Positions 2,435-59,447 of a stretch of 64,000 nucleotides of DNA are shown here, piece after piece; within the stretch, counting starts at the first letter, position 1; each line of letters begins with the position of its first letter. Location of the stretch: the IMG/VR virus record IMGVR_UViG_3300037584_005429, positions 1 through 64,000 of that record; one strand, given 5' to 3'. The stretch is from a virus. Below the pieces are notes generated by a model that worked only from the letters and a program-made list of their open reading frames with translations, searched no databases and was not told the origin of the DNA. The position numbers and the translations under genes were made by a program.

Positions 2435-3478
2435 CTAGTCTACCAATTCTGGTTGGGTTTTTAAAGTTTCTAGTAATCTCTTAGTGATTTTGTATGGGTC
2501 ACCATTACTTGCTGGCCTTCTATCTTCTACGTAACCTTTCCAATTATTTTTAACCGTAGATACTGGAATTCTAATACTAGCACCTCTGTCTGACACACCA
2601 TAACTAAATTTATTTATAGATTGTGTTTCGTGTAAACCTGTTAATCTTTTCTCATTATCACTACCATAATTATTAATGTGTTCTTCATGATAAAAAGATA
2701 AAGTATCACAAATACCTTCGATTAAATCTTTACCACCAACCTCTCTCATTTCTTTAGTTGAGAAGTTTACATGCATTCCTGAACCGTTCCAGTCACCAAC
2801 TACTGGTTTTGGGTGTAGGTCTACTGTCACTCCATGATTTTCAGTAATTCTATATAAAAGATACCTACTAACCCATAAATCATCAGAAACCTTTAGAGCT
2901 CCTTTACCAAATAGTTGGTACTCCCATTGACCTAACATTACCTCCGCGTTAACACCTGTAATATCTAATCCAATATTCATACAAGCATCTAAATGTTGTT
3001 CTACAATTTCTCTACCAATAACTCTATCTGTACCAACACCACAATAATATTTTCCTTGTGGTTCTGGATACCCTTCTTTTGGGAATCCTAGTGGTTTACC
3101 GTCTTTCATTAAAACATACTCTTGTTCAAACCCAAACCACCAACCTTCTTGGTGTCTATGAAAATCTATATCTTCTAGTTCTGCTCTTTCATTAGTCTTA
3201 TGTGACATACCCTTTTCATTTAATACCTCACATAATGCAAGATAAGACCCTACTCTTTGTGGGTCTGGATAAACCCTTACCGGTCTTAGGATACAATCTG
3301 AATTATTACCGGTAGCTTGTTTTGTTGAACTACCATCAAATGACCATTCTGGTAAATTATCTGGGTCTGGTTTAGTAATAGTACTATCTAAATCTACAAT
3401 TTTAGTTTTACTTCTTAAAGTTTGTTCTGGTTTATTACCATCTAACCAAATGTATTCAATCTTTGTTTTTATTTTCAT
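2435..3478 (-). CDS. Glutamine synthetase, type II (beta-grasp GS)
   Basis: ATP-dependent ligation of ammonia to glutamate to form glutamine. The protein has 347 residues, the normal length for type II GS, and looks complete. Visible landmarks are WSFDGSST (about 45-52), the metal-binding FGFEQE (115-120), NGSGMHVNFS (231-240), and the C-terminal RRPASNGDPYKI. The overall pattern resembles the GS type common in eukaryotes and flavobacteria, rather than 12-subunit GSI. I chose ATG 3478; a TTG 9 nt upstream is less likely. Its 5' end overlaps a small coiled-coil gene by 23 nt. In a phage this is an auxiliary metabolic gene, probably taken from a Bacteroidetes host, that could raise glutamine (nitrogen) supply for nucleotide and protein synthesis during infection. 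Confidence 0.95.
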   Translation of the reverse strand: MKIKTKIEYIWLDGNKPEQTLRSKTKIVDLDSTITKPDPDNLPEWSFDGSSTKQATGNNSDCILRPVRVYPDPQRVGSYLALCEVLNEKGMSHKTNERAELEDIDFHRHQEGWWFGFEQEYVLMKDGKPLGFPKEGYPEPQGKYYCGVGTDRVIGREIVEQHLDACMNIGLDITGVNAEVMLGQWEYQLFGKGALKVSDDLWVSRYLLYRITENHGVTVDLHPKPVVGDWNGSGMHVNFSTKEMREVGGKDLIEGICDTLSFYHEEHINNYGSDNEKRLTGLHETQSINKFSYGVSDRGASIRIPVSTVKNNWKGYVEDRRPASNGDPYKITKRLLETLKTQPELVD

Positions 3479-3629
3479 TTTTATCAAATTTTTTAATTAA
3501 TTTATCTAATTGAGAATTGATGTGGTTCATGTCAGCCACAGATTCTTTATCTTTAACCTCAATGGTTCCTACTAGTTCTTTTAACTCTTCCACTTGTTTT
3601 TTTAATTCTTTGTTTGTTTCTTGTTCCAT
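3456..3629 (-). CDS. Small coiled-coil protein
   Basis: Protein of 57 residues from ATG 3629 to a TGA at 3456-3458, overlapping the start of the glutamine synthetase gene by 23 nt. It is very rich in Lys and Glu with leucines at heptad-like spacing (KELKKQVEELKELV and NSQLDKLIKKF), so it should form a helical coiled coil. It fills an otherwise empty stretch between glutamine synthetase and the divergent DUF192 gene. Function unknown; it could be a partner of glutamine synthetase only by position. Confidence 0.6.
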   Translation of the reverse strand: MEQETNKELKKQVEELKELVGTIEVKDKESVADMNHINSQLDKLIKKFDKNENKNKD

Positions 3630-3634
3630 CTAAA

Positions 3635-3642
3635 TATTTATA
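3635..3642 (+). promoter_or_regulatory. TATTTATA element in a divergent intergenic gap
   Basis: The 18-nt gap between the minus-strand coiled-coil gene (start 3629) and the plus-strand DUF192 gene (start 3648) holds TATTTATA on the plus strand, ending 5 nt before the ATG. The spacing matches the elements before minus-strand genes, which argues that the orientation is meaningful. Confidence 0.4.
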
Positions 3643-3647
3643 ATAAT

Positions 3648-3983
3648 ATGAATGTTATTTTAGATAATAAAGTCCTACCATTAGAGATTATGTCAACTCC
3701 TAATGCCATTAGTACTGGTATGATGGGTAGGAAATATATTGATGGTGGAATGTTATTTATTTTTCCTTCCGTATCTGAACGTTCTTTCTGGATGAAAGAT
3801 TGTTTAATTTCTTTGGATATAATCTTTATCATTAAGAATAAAGTTACTCAAGTTCATTATAATTGTCCACCCTGTAATTTAAGTAAATGTAAATCTTATT
3901 ATGGTGTGGCTGATAAAGTTTTGGAATTGCCTTCAGGAAAATATAATGTAAGTGAGGGTGATATTTTAAAATTTACTAATTAG
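3648..3983 (+). CDS. DUF192 family protein
   Basis: Protein of 111 residues from ATG 3648. The pattern GMMGR...GGMLFIF...SFWMKDCLISLDIIFI is typical of DUF192, a small beta-barrel family of unknown molecular role found in bacteria, archaea and some phages. There is no signal peptide here, unlike many cellular members. It carries four cysteines in the second half (WMKDC, NCPPCNLSKC). It is one of only three plus-strand genes, and its stop overlaps the stop of the convergent DHH phosphoesterase gene by 8 nt. Being isolated, it must have its own promoter, for which the TATTTATA just upstream is the candidate. Confidence 0.8.
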   Translation: MNVILDNKVLPLEIMSTPNAISTGMMGRKYIDGGMLFIFPSVSERSFWMKDCLISLDIIFIIKNKVTQVHYNCPPCNLSKCKSYYGVADKVLELPSGKYNVSEGDILKFTN

Positions 3984-5418
3984 TATCTATAGTTTCTTTA
4001 ATTTTATTAACCATTTGTTTTTGAACCCATTTTACAAATTCAACATATCTTGTTGGTTTAGAATCTGCTTTTTTCTTATAAGGTCCTTCTGGTTGTCTAG
4101 TAGCTCTACTAAAGAAATTTAAACCACTAATATTTGTTATACATTTATGTCCACCACTATTAGCTTGAATTACGTCCCATGCTGGTACTGTTATCTTATC
4201 TAAAACAGCTTTTTGTTTTTCACTTAATTTTTCCCAAGGTGTGTCAATTATACTAACTGCCATATTGTAGTATTTTGAGTCTGGTGAAGGCATATTTTGT
4301 AAATGGTCTTTATATAAAGCAAATAGGTCAGATGTTTTAAACCCAATACTTTCATCTTCTGCTTTTGTTTCTCCTATTCTTTTAATAACTGAAACTGGTA
4401 CTTGGTGTTTTTTAAGTTGTGGTTCTACTTCTTTAAGAACTTCTTGTGCTATATCACCTAAATTAACACCTTTTAAAGCCCTATCTTTTTTAAATGGATT
4501 ACAAGAAGCTTGTACTAGACCCATTGGCCAAGCTATTACTAAAAAGTCTGCGTCTGGATATATTTGGAATGGAGTGTACCTATCATAAGAACCTGGTTTA
4601 AATAATTTTCCACCACCATATTGTACAATTATATTATCATCTATATTTAAGTTATCACTTTCTTGTTGTGATTTTATGTATTCTGCTTGATTCTGTGCCA
4701 TTTCCTCTGGTGAAGCAAATCCTTTTTCTTTTGCATATGAAGTTATGTTTTGGTATATGTTCATTAAAGAAGGGGACGAATTCATAACTAGGTATTCTAA
4801 AAATCCTGGTTTGTTTTTATAAGCTAATAATAATTTATTGGTTAAAAGACCTAACATCCATCTTTTTTCATAAGTTTGGTCACCAGATTCAAAATCTCTA
4901 ACTAAATTCATAACTTGTTCTGGTTCAATATTGTGTTTTGCGTAATCTGCTGAATCTACAGTATTAATCATCATAATATCTTCATCAGTAAAAATATCAC
5001 TAGGACTTATAGTTTGTGATATAGTTTCTACATTTGACCTAGCTCCTCTAAATTGTGTTGCTGTATCATCTTCTACACCTGCTTGGGAATCGTGATGGTC
5101 CGTATGGATTTTAAATATTGGCTTGCCGTGTGCAAAATCTACTAGGACTGGCATTACATCACCACTAGCATCTGGTTTTTTAACAGAGAATTCTTTATCC
5201 CCGTATTGAATTACGTTTGTACCTATTACTTCTATCCCATAATTTTCAAGATAATTTTTCATTCCTAATGCAGATACCACACCGTCTAGGTCTTGGTGAA
5301 AGTATATTTCTGCTTTAGGGTATCTTTTAGCTAAATTATTAATGTCTCTAATTCCACCTTCATTTAAAAGGGATTCATTAATAACTTTTAATTGTTTTTC
5401 TGTTATCTCGATTTTCAT
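3976..5418 (-). CDS. DHH family phosphoesterase with N-terminal tag
   Basis: Protein of 480 residues from ATG 5418. The DHH superfamily covers RecJ, nanoRNases and pyrophosphatases that hydrolyse phosphodiester or pyrophosphate bonds with bound Mn2+. Signature residues are HQDLDG (41-46), a D near 94 in LVDFAHG, and TDHHD (106-110), with a C-terminal NSGGHK that recalls the DHHA1 glycine motif. A large helical middle segment of unknown role separates the two. The N-terminus (ITEKQLKVINE, then LLNE-GG) resembles the tag on the neighbouring hydrolase and may be a removable capsid-targeting peptide. It follows the SleB-like gene by 25 nt. The substrate cannot be told; oligonucleotide or nucleotide hydrolysis is the likely class. 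Confidence 0.8.
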   Translation of the reverse strand: MKIEITEKQLKVINESLLNEGGIRDINNLAKRYPKAEIYFHQDLDGVVSALGMKNYLENYGIEVIGTNVIQYGDKEFSVKKPDASGDVMPVLVDFAHGKPIFKIHTDHHDSQAGVEDDTATQFRGARSNVETISQTISPSDIFTDEDIMMINTVDSADYAKHNIEPEQVMNLVRDFESGDQTYEKRWMLGLLTNKLLLAYKNKPGFLEYLVMNSSPSLMNIYQNITSYAKEKGFASPEEMAQNQAEYIKSQQESDNLNIDDNIIVQYGGGKLFKPGSYDRYTPFQIYPDADFLVIAWPMGLVQASCNPFKKDRALKGVNLGDIAQEVLKEVEPQLKKHQVPVSVIKRIGETKAEDESIGFKTSDLFALYKDHLQNMPSPDSKYYNMAVSIIDTPWEKLSEKQKAVLDKITVPAWDVIQANSGGHKCITNISGLNFFSRATRQPEGPYKKKADSKPTRYVEFVKWVQKQMVNKIKETIDTN

Positions 5419-5422
5419 ATTA

Positions 5423-5430
5423 TATAAATA
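5423..5430 (-). promoter_or_regulatory. TATTTATA element before the DHH gene
   Basis: TATTTATA on the coding strand ends 4 nt before the ATG at 5418, in the 25-nt gap after the SleB-like gene. The position supports 5418 over the in-frame upstream extension as the true start. Confidence 0.38.
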
Positions 5431-5443
5431 TCTACTTATTTGA

Positions 5444-6229
5444 TTAACACGGATGTCTCTTATCCCACCAAAATATGTGGTCACCTATTTTCTTAGCTGA
5501 CTTTTTATTGTTATTATAAGACTTTACTATAGTTCTAGTACTACTACTACTTAAGTCTACAATATCTGGATTTACGTAATGATTTACCCTAATTACATCT
5601 CCATCACTAAAATTTTCAACAATTTTTAACATACTATCAAACCCTTTTACTTTTTGATTGGTTATTCTATTAAGTAACTCTTCAAACTTCCCTTCTTTAC
5701 TTAATCTATTAAAGTAATTCCATGTTGAGTATTGTTTTCCTTTTAATACTGAGTCTTTCATACTATACCCACATTTATCAGCTCGGTTTTTTATTGTTGA
5801 CAGTATAGCTTTTAATTCTTTTTCTCCAGCTATTTGATTTTCTCCTACAAGTGTTGATGCTAATATGTAATCTTCATCATCTTCTGGTATTTCTATATAT
5901 AAATCTAATTTTTTTAAACCATTGGGTCCTATGGGTATATTGTTATTAATTTGTTTACACAAATCTATATCTAGTTGAGTGGACAAAGCTTTTAACATAT
6001 CTTTACCATAATACCCATCTCTACTTATACCTAATTTTTTTTGAATGACGTATATTGGGTGGGTTTTATCTAAATCGTAATCACCATAATTTAAAATACT
6101 ATTATTATATAACATATCATAAAAAGAAATGTCCACTTTAGAGAATTTTGTTTCTCCAGTAGGTACACACTTAACTTCCTCTTGTTCAAAAAGTCTACCG
6201 TATTGATTTTCTGTAATTATTATACGCAT
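5444..6229 (-). CDS. Peptidoglycan-binding / SleB-like cell wall hydrolase
   Basis: Protein of 261 residues from ATG 6229, which follows a hairpin and T-tract. Residues about 57-95 (IYVIQKKLGISRDGYYG) match a peptidoglycan-binding domain with its repeat-like VQ-x2-LG...DG-x2-G pattern. Residues about 122-261 match the SleB/CwlJ hydrolase fold: LVGENQIAGEKE with the probable catalytic Glu 130, then ILSTIKNR and YSTWNYF. It would cut peptidoglycan glycan strands. There is no signal peptide; instead the N-terminus carries ITENQYGRLFE, a tag shared with the next gene. Packaging in the virion and use during entry is therefore as plausible as end-of-cycle lysis. Confidence 0.75.
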   Translation of the reverse strand: MRIIITENQYGRLFEQEEVKCVPTGETKFSKVDISFYDMLYNNSILNYGDYDLDKTHPIYVIQKKLGISRDGYYGKDMLKALSTQLDIDLCKQINNNIPIGPNGLKKLDLYIEIPEDDEDYILASTLVGENQIAGEKELKAILSTIKNRADKCGYSMKDSVLKGKQYSTWNYFNRLSKEGKFEELLNRITNQKVKGFDSMLKIVENFSDGDVIRVNHYVNPDIVDLSSSSTRTIVKSYNNNKKSAKKIGDHIFWWDKRHPC

Positions 6230-6233
6230 AAAA

Positions 6234-6268
6234 AAGTCGTTTACAATAAATATAATCATAAACGACTT
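6234..6268 (-). terminator. Hairpin plus T-tract between cysteine synthase and hydrolase genes
   Basis: A perfect 10-bp inverted repeat (AAGTCGTTTA / TAAACGACTT) with a 15-nt loop is followed on the minus strand by a run of T up to the ATG at 6229. This has the form of an intrinsic terminator for the cysteine synthase unit. The loop contains TATATTTATTG, close to the start-associated element seen elsewhere, so it may also hold the promoter of the next gene. Confidence 0.6.
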
Positions 6269-6293: not shown

Positions 6294-7190
6294 TTACATA
6301 CAACTAAAATATCTTTCTCCCCTATCACACAATATAGTTATAGCATCCGTTTCATCATTATCCCTTAACCACTGAAATGACGCAAATACGTTTGCTGCTG
6401 CACTTATACCAATAAATAGGCCATAATTTTTAGCTAAATGTCTTGCACATGCCTTAGCACATTCTGTACTAACCATTCTTACTTCTGAAACCCTATCCAA
6501 ATCTACCAAAAATTTACTACCATCACCTATTCCTTGTATACCATGAAGACCTGGTTCAAACCCTGACATTACCGCACTTTCTGCTGGTTCAATAGCTACT
6601 GATTTTATATTTGGCCACATTTCTTTTAAAAATTTATCCGTACCCATTAAAGTACCACCAGTACCTGTCCCAGCCACAAAAACAGCTGGGTGTGATTTTT
6701 CACCTTTAAGTTCTTTGTATTGATTATAAAATTCTGGACCTGTGGTTTGGTAGTGTGCTTGAATGTTAAGTGGGTTATGAAATTGATTGCAATTAAACCA
6801 TCCCTTATCCTCACACATCTTATCTCTTAGGTCTATTGCCCCATCAAAATCACCATCCTCAACTTCTATTAATTCAGCCCCATAATATCTAAACATATTT
6901 TTACGTTCCTCGGACATATTAGAAGGCATAATTATAACCATTTTATAACCTCTTTCAGCTGCTAACATAGCAAAAGCAATCCCACTATTACCACTAGTGG
7001 CTTCACATAAAGTACTTCCTTTGATGATTAACCCCTTTCTTTCCGCGTTATTAATGATAAATGTTGCCATTCTATCTTTAACAGAACCACTTGGGTTCAT
7101 AAATTCAGCTTTTCCCCAAACTGTATAACTACCTATAGTTATTGGTATTAGAGGAGTGTTACCTACATTATCAGATAATTTAGTTTTCAT
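6294..7190 (-). CDS. Cysteine synthase (O-acetylserine sulfhydrylase family)
   Basis: PLP-dependent beta-replacement enzyme making cysteine from O-acetylserine and sulfide. It has 298 residues, normal length. Motifs: GNTP (10-13), PSGSVKDR with the PLP lysine K38, the substrate-binding TSGNSG (65-70), the phosphate-binding GTGTGGT near residue 175, and a C-terminal CDRGERYFS typical of CysK/CysM. CysM-like or cystathionine-synthase-like specificity cannot be excluded. Its ATG overlaps the last base of the cyclophilin stop codon (TAATG), so the two are coupled. A hairpin terminator lies just downstream. This is an auxiliary metabolic gene, rare in phages, and is of interest because late proteins here are exceptionally rich in cysteine. 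Confidence 0.92.
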   Translation of the reverse strand: MKTKLSDNVGNTPLIPITIGSYTVWGKAEFMNPSGSVKDRMATFIINNAERKGLIIKGSTLCEATSGNSGIAFAMLAAERGYKMVIIMPSNMSEERKNMFRYYGAELIEVEDGDFDGAIDLRDKMCEDKGWFNCNQFHNPLNIQAHYQTTGPEFYNQYKELKGEKSHPAVFVAGTGTGGTLMGTDKFLKEMWPNIKSVAIEPAESAVMSGFEPGLHGIQGIGDGSKFLVDLDRVSEVRMVSTECAKACARHLAKNYGLFIGISAAANVFASFQWLRDNDETDAITILCDRGERYFSCM

Positions 7191-7618
7191 TAACCCTCTA
7201 TCTCTACGTTAAATGTATCTCCTTGTTGTATTTTATCTATAACATCTAGTCCTTCTACAACCTTACCAAAACAAGTGTGATTACGGTCTAAGTGTTGTGT
7301 GTTTTGTCTCCCATGACAAATAAAGAATTGTGAACCTCCCGTATTTCTTCCTGCGTGTGCCATAGATAAAACTCCTTTATCGTGATATTGATTATCACCA
7401 TTTAGTTCACAATCTATTTTATATCCTGGTCCACCAGCTCCTGTACCATTAGGGCAACCACCCTGTACTACAAAATTAGGTATAACTCTATGGAAATTTA
7501 AATTTTTATAAAATCCGTCTTTTGCTAATTTAACAAAATTATTTACTGTGTTTGGTGCATCTTTTTCATAGAACTCTACCACCATCGTTCCTTTATCTGT
7601 ATTAATTTTACCTTTCAT
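7190..7618 (-). CDS. Cyclophilin-type peptidyl-prolyl cis-trans isomerase
   Basis: Protein of 142 residues with the compact bacterial cyclophilin pattern: [15 protein letters not shown] with the catalytic Arg, [20 protein letters not shown] and [12 protein letters not shown]. All active-site regions are present and there is no signal peptide, so it works in the cytoplasm. It catalyses proline isomerisation and would suit the folding of very proline-rich virion proteins encoded later in the window (inference). It overlaps DUF3310 at its 5' end by 11 nt and cysteine synthase by 1 nt. Confidence 0.95.
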
Positions 7619-51509: not shown

Positions 51510-54500
51510 TTAATTAGGTCCTTGAATAAAAGGGTCAATAGATGATGTCGGTTGTATAGAGGATGAGGAAGAACTGTTTGCACCACCACAAGGTGTATTA
51601 AGACTATTGACACCACAAGGTAACCACATACTATGATAAGTACCATTATTAACTATAAATTGTCCACTATTAGGGTCACCAGTACCAGGGTCCATACCTA
51701 CAATTTGACAAGGTGGTGGCATAGAACCAGATAAATTAGCTGGTTGTAGAGTTGTTCCACCTGGAGCAACAGGTTGAGCGGGGTCTTTACATTTATTTAA
51801 TACTGAATCCCACCCTAATTCACAAGCACAACACCAACAACAATTTTCGTTAATGTTAGTCGGGTCTACATTATATATACATTCACCTACTTGGAACGGC
51901 ACACTAGTATATGCTGGATTAATTGATTGGTGTGGAAAGGTTACTGGAGTTGGTGGTACATAACCATTTAATGTTATATTACAGTCTTCACACTCAGTAC
52001 TCACACTAGGTACACACGGGTCGTTATTAGCATCAACATTACAAGGTAACCACATACCACCACCAATATTCTGTCCAACTATACTACTTGGTTCTGGTTG
52101 TCCATCTTTACATCGTGCTGGTGCACTCACCGAGAATAATAAACTTTGTAAACTTTCAGGTGCGTATGGATTTGCTCCTGCTGGACTTGGTCCAGCTGGT
52201 ACACAACAATAACAACAATCACCATCAGTAGGGTCAAAAACACAATCATTTATATTGTATAATGCTGCAGGACTCCAAGGACCCAAATAATTTACAGGAC
52301 CAGTTAACAAACTACCTAAAGTAACATCACAATCATCACAACCTAAAAGTGGGTCTACACAGTCTGCAAGACAGTCTTGAAGAGCTGTTGGACCCGTATA
52401 TTGTCCCATTCCATTTCCTGGGTCTACACAATTACATGGACCCGGACAATTAACACAATCAAAAGTATCTGGTATTGTTGGGTCCTCACAACAATTAAAA
52501 GCTTGTTGACAATCTAAAAGACTAGGGTATATACCTGAAGGGTCTGGTGCGCACTGACAAGGGGGTCTACATATATTACTAGAGGTTACATCTATACACA
52601 GATTAGAATTACTACTACAACCCGGAGCGTTGTTACAAGGAGTATTAGGGTCATTAGCTATTTTTGAACTTACCGTTAATAAATTAATTAAAAAACCATC
52701 AGGTGAATATGCAGGGTTTCCTGCCGCACCTTGAGCTGGATTATAGAGGTCGTTCCATGTTGGTGGTGTAACACATCCTTGAGCGATATTCCACATAAAA
52801 TGGTAGTAACTAGGTGTCGTGAAAGACATCATATCTGGATGACTAAATTCTATTTTACTTTTTTTAAGACGATATGTATTACCAGGACCATTTAAATTTG
52901 TTTCTTCAAAACAGCCTGGTGTCAACGCCAATCCAGGATTAGCTCCGTAAGGGTCAACTTGTGTACCACCTACAAAATTTACCCAATCAGTCTGATATGC
53001 TGGCCAATTTGTACCTGGTATACTAGTGCTATTATTAACATTATATCCTGCTGCTCTATGTTTTAATAATAATACTTGTAAAGCTGTACCAGCATTAGAA
53101 TAAAAACCTGCATTTACAATAGCATTAACTTGAGCGTTACTATATCCTAGAGGAAGTAATAATGAAGCGTCGGAAGGGTTTACGGTAAATGCGTTTGAAT
53201 AACTTTGGGTTAGACCAAGTCCATTTGGTTGATTAACATATGGAAGATTAGAACCGACACCAATATTCCAACCTGTCCAAGCTGATGATACTGTATTATC
53301 ACCCTTACATGACCAAGTCTCTGGTATATAACAACATGTAGTAGTATCTGCGGTACACGAAGCTAAAGTATTATACCCAACAGTAGCATTTGCATCCCAA
53401 ATACATGGACAAATTCCTGTACCTGGGTCTGGATTTCCTGTGTTACAAACATAATAACCAGTTGTTGGGGGTTGACAACAAGGATTAGCGTTTGCCGCAA
53501 TATTACAAGTAAATAAATCGTTATAAATACAATTAGGTCCAGTAACACAAGGTTGGCAATAACAAGGAGCTATTGTACAATTACAGTATTCTGGACAACA
53601 GTAGTTGTAACCACCCATAGTTCCACCCCAATTTTGTCCACCTTCTGTGTTAGACGCACCACAATGAGTCTGCCAAGCTGTAGAGTTTTGTTGGTGTGAA
53701 TTACCTAAACTTACTCCTGGTACACCTACAGCTGTTGATTGTGCAACCCAATCAGCGTAAGAAGTTGTAATTATACCCCCTCCAATTGCTGCATCTACTG
53801 CTGCATCATTAGGACACCCCCCAAGTGCCAATCCTACGGACCTCCATGAGGTACCAGGTCCGTTTGGTGTGATACATATTCCAACAACACCGTTCCCTTC
53901 AACTTTAATCCCTGTAAATGGTACATTGTGGTATGCTGGATTTGCTGCTATCCACATCATATAAAAACTCATGCTGGCCATAGGTAGCGTTGTACCTACA
54001 CTAATAGCATCAGCATTAGTTAAAAAATAATTTCCGGCCGTGACACAAGAATTTGTTAAATTACCACCTTCTATACATTCAAACATAGTTGTTGCTGCTG
54101 TGGTAGGGCAAGAAGTGTCACATGGTACCCACATTGGGTACCCACCATTTGTTTGTCCACCAGGAAACGTGTTTGGTACATTAGCTGCTAAGAAATTTGA
54201 ATATTCGTTATACCACTGTGATGGGTTCATACCACTATGTAAAGCTGGGTCATATTGGTCGTATACCATAACATAACAACAACAAGTGTTTGCTGAATCA
54301 CAATGTGTTACCACATCCGCTATATTATACATAACACCAGGTGTCCAAGTAGGTGCACTAATAGTACTACCTACAATTGGAGTTGGGATGTTAACGGAAC
54401 TTAGTGACCAATTACCACTTGCATCAATTACAGGGAAAGTAACATTACCCGCGGTTAAACAATCGTTACATGGACAACAAGTTGTATTGTCTGAACCTAC

Positions 54501-57500
54501 ACCACCTAATGGATAAGAGTTTGTGGTACAAGCCGACATAGTATTGTAAGCCGTACAACCTAAATAAGGCGGATTTGCGGTCAAAAATGGTATAGTTATA
54601 AGACTACAATGACATGGGTCTGGTTGAGCTATCGCACCTAAATCTGGTTTACATTCTCCACATACAAAGTTACACTCATCTTGACAATCTGCTGGGTTTG
54701 AAAAAGGTCCATGTACACAATCTGATGGCATGGTACCAACAAAACTTATACAACCATCCGTTGCGTGACAACAATATTCTGTTGATTGTGGACAACAAGG
54801 GTATTGAGCTTGTAAACTTATACAATCTCCTATTGATATCGCACAACTAAAATTATATGGATTTAAGTCACATAAACAACTAACAGTTGTATCACAACAA
54901 AATCTACAAGCAGCTTGACAGTCACTTAGACTAGCAAATCCTGTAGCTCCCGCTGGATACGGTGTAGCATTACCTTGTTGACCGAAAACTTGATTTTGTG
55001 TCCAACCTGGGAAAGGTGGTGTTGTAATCCACCCTTGAATTGTTGTTTCTGGAAAACAATTTGTTGTTGTAGCTGACTGTCCCGGATTAGTATCACAAAA
55101 GTAAACTGATGGTGCTGTACAATTACAATTATTTGTATTTGCCCAACAATCAAAAGCTGACGTATGTTCTGGGAATAAACCTAATGGGTTACTACCCACA
55201 AACTGACATTGTCCTCCTGTTGATGATGCGTCACATGCCCATTTACAGTTTTCTTGACAGTCTGCTAAAGTAGTGTAAGCAGCAGATGGATATAGTGGGT
55301 CCCCTGGAAAAACTTCTATACACCCACAACCATCAGGTGCTACACAAGGTGATAAAGAACTACACCATTCTGTATCATCACAATGAAATTTACTAGTTGC
55401 TCCAGAACAACAATCTAAATTATTTGGTGGTGGTGCTAATATACCTTGTTGACACTGAAATACACTTATAAACCCATACCAACTTGATGTGTTAGTTGTC
55501 ACCCCATTTATAACATCTTGTAACATAACACAATCTGTAAAGTCATCAGTTGGGTCAGCAGGTGTACCATTATCATCACAGAAACAACCCGCTTTACAAT
55601 GGTCCATACATGTACTTGCTGTATAACAATTGTTCGCGGCCTCTTGACCGAAAACATAATTACAAGGTACAACATTAAGGGTACAACCATTAAAAAAGTC
55701 ACAACTATATGTATCACCAGATACTTGTTGACATGGGTCACAACCAAAACCTATACCTGCAGTAGCTCCACTTGGTGTACTACCACAACTTATCCACGTA
55801 TTAGGGGTTCCATTTGGTGCATCTGGACCTCCCGGTATAAAATAATTACAATCATAGAATCCTCCTGGATAAGGGTTACTATATATTGGTGTATCACAAT
55901 AATAGCAACACACATCAGGTGACCCTAATTGCCAGGATACATAATCATATAACTCATAAGCATTATATACACTATCCCATTCTCCTTGGTCTACACCAAT
56001 ACCTCCAGTAAATGGGTCACAAGCACATTCACAAGTTACTTCATCAGGTACACACCCAGTAGGGTTATCTGTAGTACATTGTGTAAAGTTACAATATATA
56101 GGTCCAAGAGGGCTACAAGGTGGATTAGCACCCACAACCGAAATATATACACAAGGCCAGTATGGCCAAGATGGGTCATACTGACCACTTGCTGGATTAA
56201 ATATTTGTGAATCTTCATCACATTCTATATCACAACAACCTGTTGCCATACAACAAGCTGAAAAAGAATCATAGGGACCTCCAGGTGACCAACCCCAACC
56301 ACTAGGTAATGTTGCTGGATTTGAATAATTTTGACAGTTACCGTAGCTACTACCATCTGTTAAATTAACAAGACAGTCATGCCCACCATCTGTGGGACAA
56401 TTGTCGTCACAAAGTTGTGCGGTGGCATAACTTCCATTTGGGTATAAAGCTAATAAACCTGGGTCTATAGGATTTGGGTTTGCACCGAACCCACTTAAAG
56501 GTACGTTTGCTGGGTTAATAGCCCAAGTTGCTTCCCAAGCTGGTAATGGTGTAGGGCAAGGTGATAATTGTTGGCAGGGTGTGGCATCACCACTTAAACA
56601 AACCCAACAGCTAGTTAATGGTGGTACACAATAAGTACAACACTGTGCTGATGTAGTATAAGGACCACAACCTGGTGTAAAACAAGGTATACATGTACTA
56701 CTACCAGGAAAACCAGTACCACCACTACAAGGTTGTACCCATGGGTCGTAACAAAGCCAAGCACAAGGACCAGGTATCCCATTATTATTATTTGGGTCAC
56801 TAGCACAATCACCAGAAGTAGCGTAAGTACCCCCAACTATTTGTACACAACCTTGGTCACAAAAATATTCCCAAGCTGTAAAATCACAACACGCTGATAT
56901 TCCTTGGCCTGGAACACCGTTTTCACAATCATTTAAAGTATAAAATGGGTCTAAAAATAACTGATTATTATTAGCTGTTATTTGTGGGTTAGCTAGAATA
57001 TAATTTGTCATTATATCGTAATAGTCCGCATCCGGTAAAGCTGCACATGATACTTCAGAACAACAAGGTGTTGATGTTGGTGTTGTACATGACCAAGCTA
57101 TTGGATTACACCAATCTTCACAATCTGTCATTGAAGAGAATGTAACTGAAAAAGGATATGTGGCTGCTGAGTAAGCTGGGTGTGTATAATCTATTTGAAT
57201 ACACCCTGGTTGGTCACAATTATATTGGTTTGGGCAATGCCATCTATCATCGACTGGACAATTACCATTATTATATTCTGTTAAACAACCACCAGGACCA
57301 GCGTAAAAAGTAAAACTATTAGGTGTACTTCCTGAAATTAATTCACAAACATAAGGACCTGGATTGTTCAAATCTGGTGGACATACCCAACTTACACAAC
57401 CTACATAATCCCAATAAGATACGTTAGTAGTTGCTGTAGGTACTATACCTGCTGGTACATTAGTTAAAGCTCTATAACAATTTCCATCTGGACCATATAT

Positions 57501-59447
57501 AAACTCTCCTGTATTAAATGTTTGGGTGTTATCCCATTGTCCCGCTACACCAATACCACCCATAGGTGAATAAGCGTTGAATGGACTATATGGGTCAGCA
57601 CATGGTAGTGCACTACCTGTAGGACAAGTTACACAGTCTGGTGTACAGGCTTCCCAAACATGTACATCTGTACCCCCAGTAGGGTTAAGATAAACTCCTT
57701 GGTATAACTGATGTGGTAGTATTCCAGCAAATGGACTATTACCGCCCACATTACTTGTTTGTACTATATCTGTTACTGCTATATAACAACAACAAGATTG
57801 TGGTGTAACATCATAAACTATATCTCCTTTAACATAATCTACAAATGGTGACCAATTAGGTGGATTAGCAGGTGCATTAGCTGTTATAGTTTCTACAGTT
57901 AAAGTAACTCTGTCAATATATTCATCTTTTGTTAAACAAAATTCACAAGTTTCTTCAGGGCACTCAAAACAATCTTCACCACCAAAAGCTAAAGAATTTA
58001 AACCACAACTAGTAGCTACGAAAATAGTTATTCCATTTCTAAAATCGTAAAAATCTATTGGTGTTTGTCCATTAGCTGAAGATATCGTGTATCCCGTATA
58101 TTGTACATTTGCCGCAAATATGTTTCCAACCATACCTGCTGTTATAGTATTTGTTAGTGGGTCAACAACATCACCACCAACTGGTACTATAGTAAATAAT
58201 TCAAAACCATCAGGTAAAAATCCTGGTGCTAAAGTAGATGGTGCATTACTATAACTTGCAAATATACCTACTGTACTTTCTGTTATACCAGTAACTTCAA
58301 AACATGGAGTTATATTAGTACCACTATATTCGTTTATATTAGTACCGGAATCCAATGGATAGTAATTAGGTGTTCCTATGGTCCCATAAGTACCGTGATA
58401 CGCGGTTGATGTAAATAATGGTGGTGGAAACACAGAAGGTGTTGGGTTAGGTCCACTTACATTTACTTGATATGGATTACCTCCTGGTGTACTAGGTGAT
58501 AAAGGACCACCCATACCCGCACCAGTAGGTGGGGCTGTAGAGAAGGGTTGAGATAATATTTGTGTATACGTTAGATTAGGTACTGTTATTATTTGACTAA
58601 CTGAAGTTGGTCCCCATGGACCATTATGTGTTATACTAATACTGTACTGTGAAGGATTCACATATTCGTATTCACTAGTTAGAGAAGGATATTGTAAATC
58701 TTCACAACATGGATAGCCGTTTGCATTGAAGGGAACGGAACAGTCACATTCTCCCCAATCAATTCTATATGATGATTTTTGAAATTCTTTATACGAACCA
58801 AAATCTGTTGTGTTATACACCTGTATTTTCATCCCATTACCTGTTGTATTAGCTGTAAAATTAAAATTAGAAAATACTTGTTGTTGGTCTATTCTTCCGT
58901 CCCAAATACTATAATGTCCTATATCGTTATAATCTTGTGTTAAAGTTACTGGAAGTTTATATAAAATACTATCTAAGGGGTCTAAACAACTACATATTTC
59001 TACACTTTCACCCCAAAACGCATTAATACCTTGTGAGTTTAATGACTGATTTATATTTGTATTAGTAACGTCATATATTGTAATTAAATCATTATAACTA
59101 CCAGTATAAAAAGTTGAACCTGAAGTAAGTACTAAACCTTTAAACTGAACATAACTATATCCATCTGGGTTGAAGCAATTAGTTGGGTTTGGACTTAACG
59201 GTTGGTCCCATAGAATTACACACGGATTAGTCGGTGAACAATCTTTTAATTCGGTTGGAAAACTAGACATAACACTACTATCTATAGCATTCATTATTTG
59301 AGAACCTGTTGAGTTGTACATGGTTATCCCAGAACAATTTGTACTAAGGTTTATTGGATAAAAATTTGTTCCTCCAGTACATGGCATTGTCCAAGTACTT
59401 CCAGTATCTGGGGTACTTCTTCTTATTGTAAACTTTTGTATATCCAT
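51510..59447 (-). CDS. Giant Cys-rich multi-modular virion adhesin (2645 residues)
   Basis: The largest gene, 2645 residues with no stop or frameshift. I counted about 200 cysteines by hand, sparse before residue 480 and dense after. Two kinds of module alternate. One is a Cys-rich unit with an aromatic-x-C start and a final TLADCQENC-like end (about 736-780, 1354-1401, 1403-1441, 1449-1514, 1557-1592, 1999-2038, 2292-2319, 2329-2363). The other is a unit with W-x3-Y-x2-GD-x-V, then CCY, then W-x-x-C (starts near 531, 637, 1156, 1700, 2390, 2508), which resembles chitin-binding CBM5/12 folds. The end is Ser/Gly-rich. No signal peptide, no membrane segment. Likely a long tail appendage that binds host glycans (inference). 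Confidence 0.75.
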   Translation of the reverse strand: MDIQKFTIRRSTPDTGSTWTMPCTGGTNFYPINLSTNCSGITMYNSTGSQIMNAIDSSVMSSFPTELKDCSPTNPCVILWDQPLSPNPTNCFNPDGYSYVQFKGLVLTSGSTFYTGSYNDLITIYDVTNTNINQSLNSQGINAFWGESVEICSCLDPLDSILYKLPVTLTQDYNDIGHYSIWDGRIDQQQVFSNFNFTANTTGNGMKIQVYNTTDFGSYKEFQKSSYRIDWGECDCSVPFNANGYPCCEDLQYPSLTSEYEYVNPSQYSISITHNGPWGPTSVSQIITVPNLTYTQILSQPFSTAPPTGAGMGGPLSPSTPGGNPYQVNVSGPNPTPSVFPPPLFTSTAYHGTYGTIGTPNYYPLDSGTNINEYSGTNITPCFEVTGITESTVGIFASYSNAPSTLAPGFLPDGFELFTIVPVGGDVVDPLTNTITAGMVGNIFAANVQYTGYTISSANGQTPIDFYDFRNGITIFVATSCGLNSLAFGGEDCFECPEETCEFCLTKDEYIDRVTLTVETITANAPANPPNWSPFVDYVKGDIVYDVTPQSCCCYIAVTDIVQTSNVGGNSPFAGILPHQLYQGVYLNPTGGTDVHVWEACTPDCVTCPTGSALPCADPYSPFNAYSPMGGIGVAGQWDNTQTFNTGEFIYGPDGNCYRALTNVPAGIVPTATTNVSYWDYVGCVSWVCPPDLNNPGPYVCELISGSTPNSFTFYAGPGGCLTEYNNGNCPVDDRWHCPNQYNCDQPGCIQIDYTHPAYSAATYPFSVTFSSMTDCEDWCNPIAWSCTTPTSTPCCSEVSCAALPDADYYDIMTNYILANPQITANNNQLFLDPFYTLNDCENGVPGQGISACCDFTAWEYFCDQGCVQIVGGTYATSGDCASDPNNNNGIPGPCAWLCYDPWVQPCSGGTGFPGSSTCIPCFTPGCGPYTTSAQCCTYCVPPLTSCWVCLSGDATPCQQLSPCPTPLPAWEATWAINPANVPLSGFGANPNPIDPGLLALYPNGSYATAQLCDDNCPTDGGHDCLVNLTDGSSYGNCQNYSNPATLPSGWGWSPGGPYDSFSACCMATGCCDIECDEDSQIFNPASGQYDPSWPYWPCVYISVVGANPPCSPLGPIYCNFTQCTTDNPTGCVPDEVTCECACDPFTGGIGVDQGEWDSVYNAYELYDYVSWQLGSPDVCCYYCDTPIYSNPYPGGFYDCNYFIPGGPDAPNGTPNTWISCGSTPSGATAGIGFGCDPCQQVSGDTYSCDFFNGCTLNVVPCNYVFGQEAANNCYTASTCMDHCKAGCFCDDNGTPADPTDDFTDCVMLQDVINGVTTNTSSWYGFISVFQCQQGILAPPPNNLDCCSGATSKFHCDDTEWCSSLSPCVAPDGCGCIEVFPGDPLYPSAAYTTLADCQENCKWACDASSTGGQCQFVGSNPLGLFPEHTSAFDCWANTNNCNCTAPSVYFCDTNPGQSATTTNCFPETTIQGWITTPPFPGWTQNQVFGQQGNATPYPAGATGFASLSDCQAACRFCCDTTVSCLCDLNPYNFSCAISIGDCISLQAQYPCCPQSTEYCCHATDGCISFVGTMPSDCVHGPFSNPADCQDECNFVCGECKPDLGAIAQPDPCHCSLITIPFLTANPPYLGCTAYNTMSACTTNSYPLGGVGSDNTTCCPCNDCLTAGNVTFPVIDASGNWSLSSVNIPTPIVGSTISAPTWTPGVMYNIADVVTHCDSANTCCCYVMVYDQYDPALHSGMNPSQWYNEYSNFLAANVPNTFPGGQTNGGYPMWVPCDTSCPTTAATTMFECIEGGNLTNSCVTAGNYFLTNADAISVGTTLPMASMSFYMMWIAANPAYHNVPFTGIKVEGNGVVGICITPNGPGTSWRSVGLALGGCPNDAAVDAAIGGGIITTSYADWVAQSTAVGVPGVSLGNSHQQNSTAWQTHCGASNTEGGQNWGGTMGGYNYCCPEYCNCTIAPCYCQPCVTGPNCIYNDLFTCNIAANANPCCQPPTTGYYVCNTGNPDPGTGICPCIWDANATVGYNTLASCTADTTTCCYIPETWSCKGDNTVSSAWTGWNIGVGSNLPYVNQPNGLGLTQSYSNAFTVNPSDASLLLPLGYSNAQVNAIVNAGFYSNAGTALQVLLLKHRAAGYNVNNSTSIPGTNWPAYQTDWVNFVGGTQVDPYGANPGLALTPGCFEETNLNGPGNTYRLKKSKIEFSHPDMMSFTTPSYYHFMWNIAQGCVTPPTWNDLYNPAQGAAGNPAYSPDGFLINLLTVSSKIANDPNTPCNNAPGCSSNSNLCIDVTSSNICRPPCQCAPDPSGIYPSLLDCQQAFNCCEDPTIPDTFDCVNCPGPCNCVDPGNGMGQYTGPTALQDCLADCVDPLLGCDDCDVTLGSLLTGPVNYLGPWSPAALYNINDCVFDPTDGDCCYCCVPAGPSPAGANPYAPESLQSLLFSVSAPARCKDGQPEPSSIVGQNIGGGMWLPCNVDANNDPCVPSVSTECEDCNITLNGYVPPTPVTFPHQSINPAYTSVPFQVGECIYNVDPTNINENCCWCCACELGWDSVLNKCKDPAQPVAPGGTTLQPANLSGSMPPPCQIVGMDPGTGDPNSGQFIVNNGTYHSMWLPCGVNSLNTPCGGANSSSSSSIQPTSSIDPFIQGPN

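Follow-up and report, generated by a model that had tools for sequence, protein, structure and literature searches.

The products of two adjacent, unrelated genes of a large aquatic phage start with the same short peptide, which is likely to be a lineage-specific capsid-targeting propeptide, an analogue of the capsid-targeting peptide (CTS) of T4, so that the enzyme behind it would be packed in the head, cut by an S77 protease, and ejected. The full tag, at the N-terminus, is M-K/R-I-x-I-T-E-x-Q-(L/F/Y)-x-x-(L/I)-x-E, and it is best read as a new class of such propeptides. It is borne by large aquatic T4-like phages of one lineage, whose hosts are probably Bacteroidota. The window, the whole 64,000-nucleotide stretch of DNA that was analyzed, comprises bases 1-64000 of an 83,059-base IMG/VR virus record, an AT-rich piece of a large phage in which contractile-tail and baseplate genes are present. 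The features of the two tagged genes are listed below, with the evidence for each in parentheses.

3976-5418, minus strand: tagged gene for a DHH/DHHA1-type phosphoesterase, 480 aa (ORF; Pfam, AF2/Foldseek, invariant motifs)
5389-5418, minus strand: N-terminal tag of the DHH protein, MKIEITEKQL (sequence; tag profile; kept in most orthologs)
5359-5367, minus strand: putative prohead protease site of the DHH protein, L18-N-E20/G21, with INE15/S16 just upstream as an alternative (E20 conservation, (L/I)xE statistics, AF2)
5424-5430, minus strand: TATTTAT element, candidate late promoter, 5 nt upstream of the DHH start codon (sequence; enrichment before tagged genes)
5444-6229, minus strand: tagged gene for a putative cell-wall hydrolase, 261 aa (PHROG 938 endolysin, E=6e-4)
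6200-6229, minus strand: N-terminal tag of the hydrolase, MRIIITENQY (sequence; core kept in 4 orthologs)
6185-6193, minus strand: putative prohead protease site of the hydrolase, L13-F-E15/Q16 (L13, E15, and Q16 invariant)
6246-6252, minus strand: TATTTAT element, 16 nt upstream of the hydrolase start codon (sequence)

The N-terminus of the DHH protein is MKIEITEKQLKVINESLLNEGGIRDINN and that of the hydrolase is MRIIITENQYGRLFEQEEVK; both are present as described in the original prediction, which had noted one N-terminal pattern on two neighboring enzymes. Mechanically called ORFs are longer than those chosen here and begin at a GTG at 5484 (DHH) and an ATG at 6259 (hydrolase). The extension upstream of the MKI and MRI starts is interrupted by a nearby stop in several relatives, and since it is unconserved among orthologs, these starts were taken as right. 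When the proteins encoded by this DNA were searched for the pattern, these two ORFs were the only matches in the window, and a tag running throughout the window's genes was rejected on that count. By eye, the tagged genes are flanked by genes for glutamine synthetase, cysteine synthase, and a peptidyl-prolyl isomerase (2435-3487, 6294-7190, and 7190-7618, all on the minus strand), and a DUF192-like protein is encoded on the opposite strand adjoining them (3621-3983, plus strand). Within the tail gene region of the window, 51510-59447 (minus strand) encodes a structural-looking protein of 2645 aa that is very rich in Cys and Pro.

At the DNA level, a search pattern encoding (M)(K/R)IxITExQ(L/F) matched at least 119 IMG/VR stretches, versus 1 match for a permuted pattern of equal degeneracy. 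Read backwards, the pattern had 0 matches in a set of 17 genomes that either have the tag or are related to it. In 257 Gb of genome sequence from bacteria and archaea there were 20 matches, most of them implausible as gene starts (an early stop, or an internal location). A chance match was rejected, given these two controls and the virtual absence of the tag from bacterial genomes. The fetched loci, five larger genomes, and the window's record together (the contigs themselves having been found via the tag) hold 277 tagged proteins in 88 BLAST-unrelated families, and common ancestry of the tagged proteins was rejected because these families are unrelated. The earlier statement that similar N-termini occur on many aquatic phage proteins was right in kind, these 88 families being found in related aquatic phages. 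A broader form of the tag starts 4-11% of all proteins in five tagged genomes, where internal offsets give 0-1; genes of unannotated genomes were called as simple longest ORFs. A 20-residue tblastn search of the tag against named cultured phages gave no match, and a search of open-licence papers for the motif strings found nothing relevant.

Tagged cargo was characterized with Pfam and PHROGs for 80 family representatives. It includes peptidoglycan hydrolases (Hydrolase_2, phage lysozyme, VanY, LysM, and PG_binding among them, with at least 6 endolysin PHROGs), as well as tRNA nucleotidyltransferase, RNase T/DnaQ exonuclease, pterin-4a-carbinolamine dehydratase, and HD and DHH enzymes; the majority of the representatives had no assignment from either source. 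The product of 3976-5418 is, by modeled fold and motifs, a DHH/DHHA1 phosphoesterase. Foldseek searches with its AF2 model, which is of moderate confidence (mean pLDDT 69), gave top matches that were all DHH enzymes (PggH, DhhP, RecJ, GdpP, and others), and all 12 orthologs keep the DHH and GGHK motifs unchanged. In fold and motifs it thus resembles the known DHH/DHHA1 phosphodiesterases; unlike them, it scores under the curated Pfam cut-off for DHH (E=0.0011) and carries an extra N-terminal tag. The product of 5444-6229 is provisionally a wall hydrolase. Its PHROG match is weak, Pfam gave no match, PG-binding-like and SleB-like segments were recognized by eye only, and its AF2 model (pLDDT 35, from 4 sequences only) was too poor for use.

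An L-x-E site following the pattern within about 20 residues, likened to the site of the T4 prohead protease, was the second element of the original prediction, and such sites proved to be enriched across tagged families. T4 gp21 cuts after (L/I)-X-E (PMC9026906). Directly behind the tag, (L/I)xE is 5.3-fold enriched (p=1e-18) and (L/I)xD is not enriched; at +9/+10 the ratio of E to D is 44:3, and the residue after the E (P1′) is skewed to Q/S/N/A/G. These downstream positions are not circular, because the search motif was defined only as far as Q. At residues 13-24, (L/I)xE occurs in 51/77 tagged families versus 295/1430 untagged proteins (p ~1e-16). Within the tested reach, 22/77 families (~30%) have no (L/I)xE, and a relaxed (L/I/V/M/F)xE was found in 65/77. 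In the T4 IPIII propeptide, Asp at position 10 (P1) blocks processing but not targeting (PMC9026906).

The gp21-type site is conserved in both window proteins. The DHH protein has two candidates, INE15/S and LNE20/G, and E20 alone is invariant, in 12/12 orthologs, despite variable flanks and a 4-aa indel between tag and site. Some of the DHH orthologs (L270 and L275-277) keep IKE/S or NE/S and have lost the ITExQ part. In the AF2 model, residues 1-5 and 11-24 have pLDDT <50, a low-confidence helix spans residues 7-20, and the fold begins at about residue 26, so that a cut at E20/G21 would leave the enzyme whole. In the 4 hydrolase orthologs, the core M-R-I-x-I-T-E-x-Q-Y is invariant, as are L13, E15, and Q16 (4/4), while position 14 is variable.

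A cut at these sites would call for a gp21-like protease, for which the original prediction proposed looking outside the window. The Pfam S77 family (T4 gp21-type) was found in 10/31 tagged contigs >40 kb (together ~3.28 Mb, or about one per 330 kb), in 5/6 tagged contigs >150 kb, and in 0/14 control contigs (1.11 Mb). The window's own 83-kb record, a fragment, has no S77 match. A 214-kb contig with 20 tags (G004) also has none, possibly because it is incomplete. The closest large relative of the window phage is a 210-kb contig (G033) in which 64/84 proteins were matched in the same order with a mean identity of 64% (88% for the DHH protein). Its S77 protease (E=2.7e-27) adjoins a Gp23 major capsid protein (E=5e-73), portal, terminase, and an acidic scaffold-like protein. 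In 6/6 genomes with the MKIxITE tag (tag 1) that were aligned, INE/A of the major capsid protein lines up with LTE65/A66 of T4 gp23, by sequence only. With INE/A at the gp23 cut position, the S77 protease of the tagged phages probably has T4 cleavage specificity. The major capsid protein of Flavobacterium phage immuto has VSE/A at the T4 gp23 cut site.

The strongest argument for capsid targeting comes from a 635-kb relative, LR745206 (W01; 634,780 bases), in which no protein has the MKIxITE tag. Its DHH ortholog starts MISKYNQFINE/EVGLRNI, its exonuclease ortholog starts MKLKKYKQFIKE/S, and other orthologs start MILKKYKMFLE/S (tRNA nucleotidyltransferase) and MIKKFNQFLE/N. T4 IPII and IPIII start MKTYQEFIAE/A (T4 record), and CTS targeting in T4 was mapped in IPIII to Tyr4 and Phe7 (PMC9026906). 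The T4 targeting residues 4 and 7 and processing residues 8 and 10 (Y, F, I, and E) are all kept in W01. Depending on stringency, 26-41 W01 proteins have T4-CTS-like starts, versus 2-6 at internal offsets, and neither lineage has the tag of the other. Among W01 proteins matched by tag-1 families, 7/8 have a KYxxF-type start versus a background of 13% (p=5e-6); these 7 are the DHH enzyme, the tRNA nucleotidyltransferase, a HAD-like protein, a DnaQ-like exonuclease, and three others. When the 57 W01 proteins with tag-1 orthologs were considered, 3/3 tagged proteins had tagged orthologs (p=3e-4); in the remaining pairs, two further tag-1 orthologs were tagged and 52 were untagged on both sides. 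These comparisons indicate that two unrelated peptides, one of them closely similar to the T4 CTS, are interchangeable on the same cargo, and for these reasons both are read as capsid-targeting. Starts of the form MKHIKxFNE or MKYLKxYKxFE are also found on many W01 proteins and are probably more variants of the T4-like tag, and the S77 match of W01 sits in an open frame of >700 aa.

Tag 1 is like the CTS of T4 IPI, IPII, and IPIII in being a short, conserved N-terminal peptide common to unrelated and diverse cargo proteins (here 88 families), with an (L/I)xE end and a gp21-type protease (PMC3012670, PMC9026906), and the S77 protease of G033 and the 10 contigs and the (L/I)xE site in the aligned capsid proteins extend this likeness in relatives. 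T4 IP propeptides are 10-19 residues long (PMC9026906). Unlike the T4 CTS, the tag reads MKIxITExQL..LIxE and not MKTYQEFIAE, and each lineage has it on dozens of families, most of them enzymes, compared with three or four small proteins in T4. MKIEITEKQ and MRIIITENQ have neither Tyr4 nor Phe7, whereas the W01 tags have KYxxF. Without the mapped targeting residues, the tag is not a sequence member of the T4 CTS, though it is CTS-like in its putative working. The W01 tags (M..KKYxxFIxE) share with tag 1 the DHH, tRNA nucleotidyltransferase, and exonuclease cargo families and the (L/I)xE end; they differ in the targeting half, which is near that of T4. The giant phages phiKZ and SPN3US are similar in that a gp21-like protease processes head and ejection proteins (PMC9026906), but their consensus is (S/A)xE, their propeptides are longer, and a common short tag is not described in PMC9026906.

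An explanation at the level of DNA or RNA, such as a promoter with a translation-enhancing start, or a mobile 5′ cassette, is barely credible and already largely refuted by codon usage. The profile of the tag (aligned on T-E, one member per family) is M-K-I-I-I-T-E-S-Q-(L/F/Y)-K-x-(L/I)-x-E, and its information drops to background about ten residues past the T. Within this stretch the codons match the codon usage of the gene bodies, synonymous positions vary alike, and orthologs keep the peptide with different codons. Since codon usage in the tag is ordinary, selection acts on the protein, and a nucleotide signal or the recent spread of a cassette is ruled out as the main cause; a DNA-level signal was rejected on this basis. 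Such a signal would account for TATTTAT, which often lies 4-6 nt before the ATG of tagged genes and is found within 25 nt upstream of 15/29 tagged versus 244/1205 untagged genes (p=2e-4). However, many tagged genes lack the element, and it also precedes untagged terminase and portal genes, so that it appears to be these phages' late promoter and not a component of the tag. TATTTAT corresponds to T4's TATAAATA read on the other strand; as a late-promoter candidate, it would yield almost leaderless mRNAs.

Two alternatives keep the signal in the protein. The tag could be a sorting or docking peptide for the tail or baseplate, a replication compartment, or a holding complex, with (L/I)xE as the end of an amphipathic helix. 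It does resemble a short strand followed by a helix (LxxLIxxE), in line with the low-confidence helix of the DHH model; the ~30% of families without (L/I)xE fit this idea, and several cargoes are wall hydrolases, which would be sensible in a tail too. A generic helix, however, would not give the preference for E over D (44:3) or that at P1′, nor would it hold the E fixed when an indel alters the distance from tag to site. The presence of S77 also argues against it, as does the finding that in another lineage this cargo bears a tag resembling the T4 CTS, which has the same FIxE ending, and we consider it unlikely. Still less probable, and by a clear step, is a head-targeting tag that is left unprocessed or is cut at I-T-E7 within the tag and not at the later (L/I)xE. 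ITE formally fits (L/I)xE, is the sole such site wherever a tagged family lacks one farther along, and has a match in ITE/A of the T4 IPI propeptide region; yet a cut there leaves the enrichment of (L/I)xE at +9/+10 and the invariant E20 unexplained.

A capsid-targeting propeptide is therefore the reading that we prefer. By analogy with T4, the enzyme would be recruited into the head as it assembles, through binding of residues ~1-14 (MKIxITExQLxxLI) to some component of the prohead core. The S77 (gp21-type) prohead protease would then cut behind the Glu of the next (L/I)-x-E, and the mature enzyme would be freed among the packaged DNA and ejected into the host along with the genome. The original prediction that the two enzymes are packed in the head and injected is partly supported. 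All of its computable predictions held: the tag is on many unrelated proteins, the (L/I)xE is E-specific, S77 and T4-type capsid genes are present in tag-bearing phages (the colinear relative of the window phage among them), and orthologous cargo in another lineage bears a T4-CTS-like tag. Against it stand the lack of homology to the T4 CTS targeting residues and the lack of a protease in the window's incomplete 83-kb record.

Head-packed proteins of giant phages that are delivered with the DNA are known for a few cultured phages only. If the tag is a capsid address label, the sets of packaged and injected proteins of many uncultured phages could be read from sequence alone, and a new, sequence-defined CTS would be usable in packaging experiments. 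Two non-homologous tags with the same job on the same enzymes would mean that the interface between core and tag is exchangeable in evolution. A wider proposal, on which we are almost evenly divided and lean slightly to doubt, is that large aquatic T4-like phages have a general zip-code system in which a lineage-specific, non-homologous tag is read by the phage's own prohead core and is present on tens of enzymes. Wall hydrolases, phosphodiesterases, tRNA nucleotidyltransferases, ADP-ribosyltransferase-like proteins, and exonucleases would be its cargo, which would move between lineages by tag swap, and the injected first-wave proteome would be readable from sequence.

Other recurrent N-termini were observed in these and related genomes. 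The cultured relative immuto (L422-L425, NC_055915; T4-like) has no MKIxITE; it has other repeated N-termini instead, namely MKKSQLRxIIKxEL, FDLKKFLVENKLTxNSxLLxE, and MKKQILSEQFxRMQxLAGIITES. In the tagged genomes G001, G033, and G034, a further recurrent tag is M(K)KIIxLTES(D/E)LxxLIxxVIxE (e.g., G001:186729-187427 and G033:206679-207482), and another is MKKxIxEEEKNRILxMH (G001:173390-174190); both often end in (I/L/V)xE. Small tagged proteins (~100 aa) with diverged bodies, mostly without (L/I)xE, are encoded in tandem at L114:6708-7965 and G001:182259-187427.
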